Below, one piece after another: positions 33,035 through 34,351 of a DNA stretch of 44,597 nucleotides (the stretch's first letter is position 1; every line of letters starts with the position of its first letter). The DNA is from Bacteroidales bacterium (GTDB taxonomy: Bacteria > Bacteroidota > Bacteroidia > Bacteroidales > UBA932), in NCBI GenBank assembly GCA_017464245.1, contig JAFUDV010000056.1:1-44597 (forward strand), written 5' to 3'. Under the pieces are notes generated by a model that worked only from the letters and a program-made list of their open reading frames with translations, did no database searches and was not told the origin of the DNA. The translations under genes were made by a program, and so were the position numbers.

Positions 33035-34351
33035 ATGACGTTCTCCGATTTCATATTGCAGCACGAAGGCGACGATCCGGTCCGCCTCCTTCTCTCCAGG
33101 GACCGTTTCCCCGACGTGGACATGGACCTCGCAGCGACGACCCTGGAGGTGCGTTCCCGGCTCCGGACCAAGGTCCCGGAGTGGTACGCCGTCCCGTCAC
33201 TGGTTTATCCTTACCGGCTCTCCGGCGAACAGTGCAGTTCAAGTGAGACCGCCAGGTATAAGGCAATGGTTTGCGGGAGCAGTTTGGTCCCCGAACCGTC
33301 GCTTTGCGACCCCTCCCCTAAATGGGCCCCACCCGCGTTTGTGGCCGCGGGTGGCCACAGGGTCGGGGACCAAACCGCTCCCGCAAATGATCGTTTGAGA
33401 ATTGCTGATCTGACCGGGGGAATGGGGGTGGATGCGTGGGCGTTCGCGCAAGTTGCCACGGAGGTGCTGTATAATGAGATGAAGGTGGAGTTGGCGAATG
33501 CGACGGAATTGAATTTCAGGGAGTTGGGGGTGAAGAACGTGCGGTTCCGGAATGAAAGGGTGGAGCCGGGGAAGGTGCGGGAAGTGCTCGATGGGTTCGA
33601 GCCGGATGTCATTTTCCTGGATCCGGCGCGTCGGGCGGAGGACGGACGGAAGGTGTTCCTCATCGAGGACTGCCAGCCGGATGTGCTGACGCTGCTTCCG
33701 GAGCTTTTCGCGGCGAGCCGGTTCGTGCTGCTCAAACTTTCGCCGATGGCGGACATCACGATGGCCTGCAAGCGGCTCTCGCCTGTGCGGGAGGTGCATG
33801 TGGTGGCTGCAGGAGGGGAGTGCAAGGAACTGCTGTTCCTCCTGGACCGGGAATGGTCCGACACCCCTGTGACCTTCATTGTCGAAGGCGGCGCTGTGAT
33901 GGAGATTCTCGGTCAGGCCGGGAATGACGTGGCGTTTGGTCTCCCCATACCTGGGCAGTTTCTCTTCGAGCCCGGAAAGGCCCTGCTCAAGGCCGGGGCG
34001 TTCGATCTGCCTTGCGACCGGTTCGGATTGACCAAGGTGGGACAGCATACGCATCTGTATGTGGGTGGGGAGGTCCCGGAGCAATTGCGCCCGTTCGGAA
34101 AGGTGTTCGAAGTTCTGGAGGTGCTGCCCTTGAACAACCGGACGATGAAGGAGGCCGGGAAGCGCTGGCCGAAGGCAGAGGTGACGGCCCGGAACGTGCC
34201 CATGACCTCCGAGGTGCTGCGGAAGAAGACCGGCTGCGCCTCGGGCGGGGACATCCACCTGTTCGGCGTCCGGGCCGATGCCGCCACGGAGGCGGGCAAT
34301 TATTTGATAATAACCAAGAAATATCCATCTTCCAAAACAGATAGACCATGA
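33035..34351 (+). CDS. THUMP-like class I SAM-dependent methyltransferase with repeat-encoded insert
   Basis: A 438-residue cytosolic methyltransferase, probably acting on RNA, of the Bacteroidetes THUMP-like/PG_1098-type family. The N-terminal helical part holds EQCSSSETARYKA. The SAM-binding motif I is RIADLTGGMGVDAWAFA, and the catalytic-type motif is FLDPARR (the D-P-A-R-R of this family). GECKELLFLL and the C-terminal ferredoxin-like domain (GKVFEVLEVLPLNNRTMKEA) follow. Residues 79-118 do not belong to the family: they are encoded by a 118-bp palindromic repeat that enters between TARYKA and the SAM domain without breaking the frame. The end overlaps the CPBP gene start (ATGA). Start 33035 is chosen over 33029 because of the nearby -7 box. 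Confidence 0.85.
   Translation: MTFSDFILQHEGDDPVRLLLSRDRFPDVDMDLAATTLEVRSRLRTKVPEWYAVPSLVYPYRLSGEQCSSSETARYKAMVCGSSLVPEPSLCDPSPKWAPPAFVAAGGHRVGDQTAPANDRLRIADLTGGMGVDAWAFAQVATEVLYNEMKVELANATELNFRELGVKNVRFRNERVEPGKVREVLDGFEPDVIFLDPARRAEDGRKVFLIEDCQPDVLTLLPELFAASRFVLLKLSPMADITMACKRLSPVREVHVVAAGGECKELLFLLDREWSDTPVTFIVEGGAVMEILGQAGNDVAFGLPIPGQFLFEPGKALLKAGAFDLPCDRFGLTKVGQHTHLYVGGEVPEQLRPFGKVFEVLEVLPLNNRTMKEAGKRWPKAEVTARNVPMTSEVLRKKTGCASGGDIHLFGVRADAATEAGNYLIITKKYPSSKTDRP
33270..33387. repeat. 118-bp MITE-like inverted-repeat element inside a coding gene
   Basis: The ends TTTGCGGGAGC and GCTCCCGCAAA start a terminal inverted repeat of 25 bp with one mismatch (A/G at position 12), extendable to 28 bp with two. 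The interior holds three more palindromes: GTCGC-TTT-GCGAC, CCACCCGCG with CGCGGGTGG, and TGTGGCC with GGCCACA. It contains no transposase. It is open in the host gene frame and encodes residues 79-118 of the methyltransferase. No clear target-site duplication: ATG flanks both sides, which could be chance. Confidence 0.85.

Follow-up and report, generated by a model that had tools for sequence, protein, structure and literature searches.

A palindromic element read in frame through a Bacteroidales methyltransferase gene: evidence for a genus-wide repeat family with a folded core and site-specific arms

The window examined here, a stretch of 44,597 nucleotides from an assembly of a Bacteroidales bacterium, carries a methyltransferase gene whose reading frame runs unbroken through a palindrome of 118 bp. 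How does such a structure come to lie within coding DNA, and is it a peculiarity of one gene or a member of something more widely dispersed? The first-pass annotation had described a palindromic element at 33270-33387 that is read through as protein inside the methyltransferase; these coordinates are right, and the host frame is indeed open across it. The features to which the following discussion refers are these:

33035..34351, plus strand: host gene, a PG_1098/THUMP-like class I SAM methyltransferase of 438 aa including the insert (open reading frame, Pfam, DLTGG)
33270..33387, minus strand (taken as the folded one): the whole palindromic element (fold, arms, structure-model match)
33270..33294, no strand assigned: left arm of the outer stem, of site-specific sequence that differs in other copies; one mismatch against the right arm
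33363..33387, no strand assigned: right arm of the outer stem, paired with the left arm over 25 bp
33298..33310, no strand assigned: hairpin A, GTCGC-TTT-GCGAC (from the fold); other copies have different hairpin A types
33315..33326, no strand assigned: hairpin B, vestigial, CCC...GGG (from the sequence)
33332..33336, no strand assigned: pseudoknot partner, CCCGC on the plus strand and GCGGG on the folded strand, pairing with the hairpin C loop
33340..33359, no strand assigned: hairpin C, TGTGGCC-GCGGGT-GGCCACA, its loop in the pseudoknot (from the sequence; stem and loop covary)

Folding of the 118 bp yields -78.2 kcal/mol for the plus strand (z -9.10) and -85.7 kcal/mol for the minus strand (z -9.57), and for neither strand did any of 200 dinucleotide shuffles equal the native value. 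A structure model built from 68 copies of the element matches the window copy on the minus strand at 33276-33381, with 99.8 bits. The place of hairpin B is taken in other copies by segments that vary in both sequence and length (alignment A1, columns 56-77). Rfam returned no match at E<=1 around the window element; a scan of five other loci returned two microRNA models overlapping the element of one of them (L289), far below the gathering score.

The host protein matches Pfam PF22013 and PF18096, both over cut-off, and the DLTGG at its residues 125-129 is invariant across 25 aligned sequences. The element accounts for residues 79-118, the plus frame being open throughout, which agrees with the roughly 40 coding-strand residues initially read there. 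The first-pass annotation also gave relatives only a short linker where the element sits before DLTGG, and this holds: from the RYK motif to DLTGG, 17 relatives without the element have 9-21 residues as against 48 in the window protein, and seven loci with the element have 47-68. The alignment with relatives that had been proposed as a check shows residues 79-118 not to be conserved, and they are missing from all 17 of these parsed relatives. The survey covered 61 genus genomes, 55 of which gave a methyltransferase match; 30 of these were fetched and two named loci added, and six were not parsed. The linkers of L239 and L244 (48 and 50 residues) hold another long in-frame insert at the same place, with the core absent, and this methyltransferase linker thus accepts more than one type of insert. 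In genome G078 the structure model matches elsewhere in the same gene, near residue 300.

Counting copies, the other check that had been proposed, shows the element to be multicopy, with 10 structure-model matches in its own genome, where BLAST found six further places and a search for the core pattern added others. Across the genus, 84 of 101 genomes have a structure-model match, with up to 36 in one genome; among 198 genomes of the order the model matches five, two of which belong to the genus, leaving 3 of 196 outside it. The core pattern, with up to two mismatches allowed, occurs in 16 of 61 genomes including the window's own, all 16 being among the 37 genus members; 293 genomes from outside the genus yielded no match. 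Named genomes, when scanned, gave at least 116 stretches, and among the matches listed all are, by title, Bacteroidales/Bacteroidia assemblies, many from ruminants. Carriage by phage was considered and set aside, viral contigs having given no exact match to the core pattern. Two groups of copies depart from the rest. The subfamily of G016 (L168, L171-L176, L178-L184) has its arms and a long hairpin B in common and was probably amplified recently. G238, a genome of another family, has 16 model matches, and the three of these that were read (L274, L278, L280) have common arms, unlike most genus copies. We parsed 164 copies, 160 of them distinct, from uncultured assemblies; they were gathered by the core pattern, so that statements on core sequence are ascertained and those on arms, frame and orientation less so, and copies at the same site are not independent of one another. 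Our best reading of this distribution is that the window element is one copy of a genus-wide, presumably mobile but non-autonomous family of approximately 100-170 bp.

What the copies have in common is a folded core of three hairpins and one pseudoknot, with covariation; the pseudoknot had escaped the first-pass annotation. Across the 68 aligned copies the minus-strand structure comprises 43 pairs in six helices, and 94.9% of its cells are paired as opposed to 74.0% after shuffling. For the core pairing none of 500 shuffles was as high, and sliding the partners gave at most 48.8%. The pseudoknot joins the hairpin C loop to a downstream GGG run and is complementary in 194 of 202 contexts through five types of pairing: CCCTC/GAGGG (180 contexts), CCCGT/ACGGG (8), CCCAT/ATGGG (4), CCCAC/GTGGG (1) and CCCGC/GCGGG (1), the last being the window copy itself. 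Since the search pattern demands CCC and GGG, these counts actually test two of the five pseudoknot pairs. Seven of the eight non-complementary contexts have a CCCCC loop, and a different register may allow pairing in some of these. Within-genome homogenisation of the core was also considered; the sign of it was weak, with within-genome identity exceeding same-site identity in 12 of 19 genomes, and we make no claim of it.

The arms behave quite differently. The near-perfect 25-bp terminal inverted repeats of the first-pass annotation stand as a description of the window copy, whose arms pair over 25 bp with one mismatch; most copies do not share the arm sequence, and these are not terminal inverted repeats (TIRs) of the kind found in MITEs. 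The shared-TIR reading was abandoned after copies were compared side by side. Over the family, 3444 of 3682 arm positions (93.5%) are Watson-Crick paired, whereas dealing the right arms at random among the 160 elements gives 45% on average. The arm consensus is degenerate, its information falling near zero from about 25-28 nt; average agreement of an arm with this consensus is 12.7 positions out of 23, compared with 21.8 of the innermost 24 positions paired to its own partner. In genome G007, six of 15 matches were read: five have mismatch-free arms of 27-31 bp and one has 29 bp with a single mismatch. L294 and L298 of that genome have identical cores and different yet perfect arms of 28 and 30 bp, and L284 and L289 have part of their arm sequence in common. 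Since the G016 subfamily, the G238 copies and the L284/L289 pair share arm sequence, arms can travel with the element.

Changes within arms were counted over the innermost 20 positions between copies at the same site, in pairs that are not independent. Same-orientation pairs show 539 two-sided changes that keep pairing, 157 one-sided changes and 51 two-sided changes that leave the position unpaired; for opposite orientations the corresponding counts are 408, 151 and 47. Restricting the pairs to those with flank identities of 85% or more gives 22, 10 and 0 (same orientation) and 24, 17 and 5 (opposite), two-sided paired changes being less dominant in these close pairs. The mismatches are themselves asymmetric: in core orientation there are 123 A.C and 30 G.T, whichever strand the gene is on, and among in-frame copies the ratio is 34 to 1 and 30 to 8 for the two gene orientations. 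This bias points to the minus strand as the folding strand, although a single fixed mismatch may contribute to the A.C excess, 79 of the 123 falling at arm positions 8-16. In the outer stem of the 68 aligned copies, read on the folded strand, the 5' arm contributes the G to 54 of the G.U pairs and the U to 19.

Placement relative to genes was judged by conservation of the coding frame in both flanks. This test took the place of one from open frames alone, which chance openness makes unreliable where DNA is GC-rich. It assigned a class to 112 copies and left 52 of the 164 unclassed: in 69 the two flanks share a frame, in 28 they share a strand but differ in frame, and the other 15 have flanks coding on opposite strands. 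Reading through the element is uninterrupted in 64 of the 69 same-frame copies and meets a stop in five. Because six of the 64 run into a stop within 75 nt, on one side or on both, the criterion was tightened; the 58 in which the frame stays open for 75 nt or more on each side are taken as lying in genes, at 16 sites, 32 with the core in plus sense and 26 in minus. As openness belongs to the definition of an in-gene copy, the fair contrast is with the remaining 33 same-strand copies, among which the flanks of L046 alone form one open gene elsewhere, amounting to one possibly broken gene. In 25 of these 33 copies outside open genes, approximately 32 nt or less separates the start of the element from the first stop in the upstream frame.

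Within genes, both senses are present at nine of the 14 sites that have two or more copies, and five of the six reading frames are used; the conserved UAA falls in the sixth, an unused frame that 7 of 164 copies leave open. Taking the five remaining frames of each of the 64 same-frame copies, 164 of 320 are open. Between copies sharing an in-gene site, the difference in core length is a multiple of three in 82 of 119 pairs, as against 1890 of 5565 pairs of copies not in genes. Splicing or bypass of the element is not needed, because in-gene copies preserve the frame. The hosts scanned are MtaB, RibF, YgiQ, TruA, TrmB, MurB, YggS, RsmA, a glycosyltransferase-like and an aminotransferase-like protein, with an E2 acyltransferase and M20 peptidases as further hosts; the in-frame inserts (in MurB, RibF, TruA, TrmB and others) would add 37-59 residues upon translation. 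At the MurB site, the place that the element occupies in L017 is taken by another repeat in L044 and by another, short palindrome in L063.

The element also occurs in either direction at what is otherwise the same place. Multiple copies are present in 27 of 89 site clusters (in one case as two copies in a single genome), and both orientations in 16; among same-site pairs, 105 agree in orientation and 75 are opposed. In L061/L065 and L056/L146, whose flanks are still 87-90% identical, an arm mismatch or indel moves together with the core, and therefore the whole element has been flipped. A fresh insertion and the inversion of an old copy are indistinguishable here.

The reading that we lean towards, at somewhat better than even confidence, is that of a non-autonomous element akin to the Rickettsia palindromic elements, spread across the genus and lying in frame in genes, whose palindromic arms are maintained by fold-back or template-switch copying. 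The folded strand (minus in the window), with its outer stem, three hairpins and pseudoknotted hairpin C, would be the conserved part and is probably what the mobility machinery recognises, while in the outer stem palindromy would outweigh sequence. An arm may be re-copied from its partner through fold-back or template-switch DNA synthesis, a process that would keep the arms matched as their sequence drifts, might extend into host DNA, and would invert the element. Template switching between inverted repeats is described as homogenising arms and inverting spacers (PMC8604942), and this would account for arms that are matched but drifting and for the flips. Family members sit inside genes and just past stop codons; within genes, presumably only insertions that keep the frame survive, and the element would be translated as a linker of 37-59 residues. 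The copy number, the covarying fold, the copy-specific arms, the in-frame placement, the inversion at single sites and the short linker of element-free relatives are observed; a mobilising enzyme, the copying mechanism, the RNA or single-stranded DNA state of the folded strand, and the production and tolerance of the peptide are inferred. Against this reading count the failure of the Y1 search to find an enzyme, the lack of a fixed-length target duplication, the groups of copies with common arms, the lesser dominance of two-sided paired changes in close pairs, and the A.C over G.T bias, which plain template switching does not predict.

The sequence just beyond the arms bears on how the outer stem arises. 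Insertion may itself copy flanking sequence: of 146 copies, nine have an inverted match of at least 9 nt beyond the arms but no more than 50 nt away, as compared with 6 of 724 mismatched controls (Fisher 1.7e-4). Two of the nine, L056 and L039, owe the match to a bulge that breaks the arm, and another two, L062 and L089, represent one site. At this last site an inverted repeat of the upstream gene's end lies beyond the element, and the element-free relatives L072, L104 and L120 have the gene end only. Copying at insertion and copying afterwards are indistinguishable as sources of such an extension into the flank. A variant, which we regard as improbable, is that the element brings the folded core alone and that the outer stem is made at each new site, in either orientation, by inverted back-copying of adjacent DNA. 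To our knowledge, transposition of a core that acquires its own palindrome would fall outside TIR transposons, REP/RAYT elements and retroelements.

Among 147 copies, exact adjacent repeats of 2, 3 and 4 nt were found 6, 9 and 1 times and those of 5-9 nt not at all, and shared words of at least 5 nt near the ends occur in 36, above the dealt control; no target duplication of fixed length was seen in these copies, with short direct repeats somewhat in excess of controls. A T stands at position -3 in 78 of the 147 and at +1 in 65, a weak target preference. Eleven pairwise displays of empty sites gave mostly poor alignments. The search for a mobilising enzyme was confined to the Y1 family and yielded none. 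Weak, RAYT-like matches to Y1_Tnp are present in 30 of 41 genus genomes, 29 over cut-off, mostly in ORFs of about 280-380 aa and often several per genome. It is reasonable to ask, then, whether a conventional HUH (Y1, RAYT-like) transposase moves a folded single strand, as proposed for REP, with the arms serving as a variable outer hairpin of single-stranded DNA. The commonness of Y1 matches in the genus, the base preference outside the ends, and the strand-specific pairing, with G.T tolerated on one strand, all speak for such an arrangement. However, the core pattern occurs in none of 24 Y1 loci fetched (a subset of those listed, each with some 1-1.5 kb of flanking sequence), the arm ends bear neither GTAG nor CGTC as a fixed tag, and among these incomplete genomes G000 and G014 have copies and no Y1 match while G009 and G010 have Y1 matches and no copy. 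On balance we think a Y1 transposase of this type unlikely to be the agent.

A second alternative dispenses with mobility altogether and takes the element for a functional RNA structure selected at each site through compensatory changes. Covariation of the stems and pseudoknot would be expected of such an RNA, and the A.C over G.T bias resembles what G.U pairs on one RNA strand would produce. It is difficult to reconcile an RNA of this kind with in-gene copies that lie in both orientations to their host genes, within genes that are unrelated, and with the same site being empty in relatives, and we give this account a low probability.

More doubtful still is the proposal that the core inserts into palindromes that existed beforehand, as some REP dimers are reported to do (PMC3733652). 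The window's own genome has a short palindrome, at L008, where L028 (with its second copy) and L031 carry the element; it is a candidate for either a deletion remnant or an older target. L021 has an extra inverted repeat outside its arms. By eye, though, no long palindrome is seen at the site in three relatives of L062 or in the 17 insert-free methyltransferases, and for a single genome to have identical cores within perfect arms that differ (28 and 30 bp) would call for many long perfect targets. That the element is an artefact of metagenome-assembled genomes is scarcely credible: the named genomes are uncultured assemblies and hairpins assemble poorly, but separate assemblies are occupied at the same sites and core lengths at shared in-gene sites differ by multiples of three to the extent given above.

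On the reading of an element with arms maintained by copying, the range of protein-coding selfish palindromes would grow beyond the Rickettsiales to take in a host-associated (rumen/gut) genus of Bacteroidales, which may be Cryptobacteroides or a near neighbour. Furthermore, the number of species and the presence of both orientations at one site render the upkeep of coding palindromes testable in terms of fold selection, template switching and the insertion process. The first-pass annotation knew of no such element in this group, and the best-ranked matches among open-licence PMC papers likewise contain none for Bacteroidales or under similar names.

Several known systems invite comparison. 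The coding palindromes of Nematomorpha mitochondria (PMC6649704) are likewise perfect inverted repeats within translated genes; there, in contrast, both arms encode conserved protein, and a dispersed core is not mentioned in what that account provides. The template switching of PMC8604942 shows the same arm homogenisation and spacer inversion, but is described as a mutational process in yeast genes with no repeat family. REP sequences with RAYT (PMC3733652) are similar in being short hairpins, with some copies in ORFs and some in palindromes, whereas the present element has no terminal GTAG/CGTC tag, keeps its conserved part internally, and shows no core beside the Y1 loci fetched. Bacterial MITEs such as Correia/NEMIS, ERIC and RUP (PMC2229807) are also small and non-autonomous, with inverted ends, and lie between and inside genes. 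Those elements have TIRs, several with target duplications; here most arms are unshared and no fixed duplication is seen, and arms common to several copies are the exception, as in the G016 subfamily and the G238 copies. In behaviour the likeness is to the Rickettsia palindromic elements, repeats of about 100-150 bp that enter ORFs without destroying them and are found as inserts at the same locus in orthologues (PMC3767692, PMC10969869, PMC2229807). That likeness, first proposed in the first-pass annotation, is upheld by a dispersed repeat lying in frame in the coding DNA of unrelated genes, with 58 copies at 16 sites. The Rickettsia elements and the Wolbachia WPE are comparable to the present family in length (about 100-150 bp), palindromy, several copies per genome, in-frame position in protein genes, and the same place in orthologues. 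The Bacteroidales family differs from them in its lineage, and may differ in arms that are mostly specific to the copy, in a covarying pseudoknotted core, in inversion between orthologues, and in the use of five of the six reading frames.
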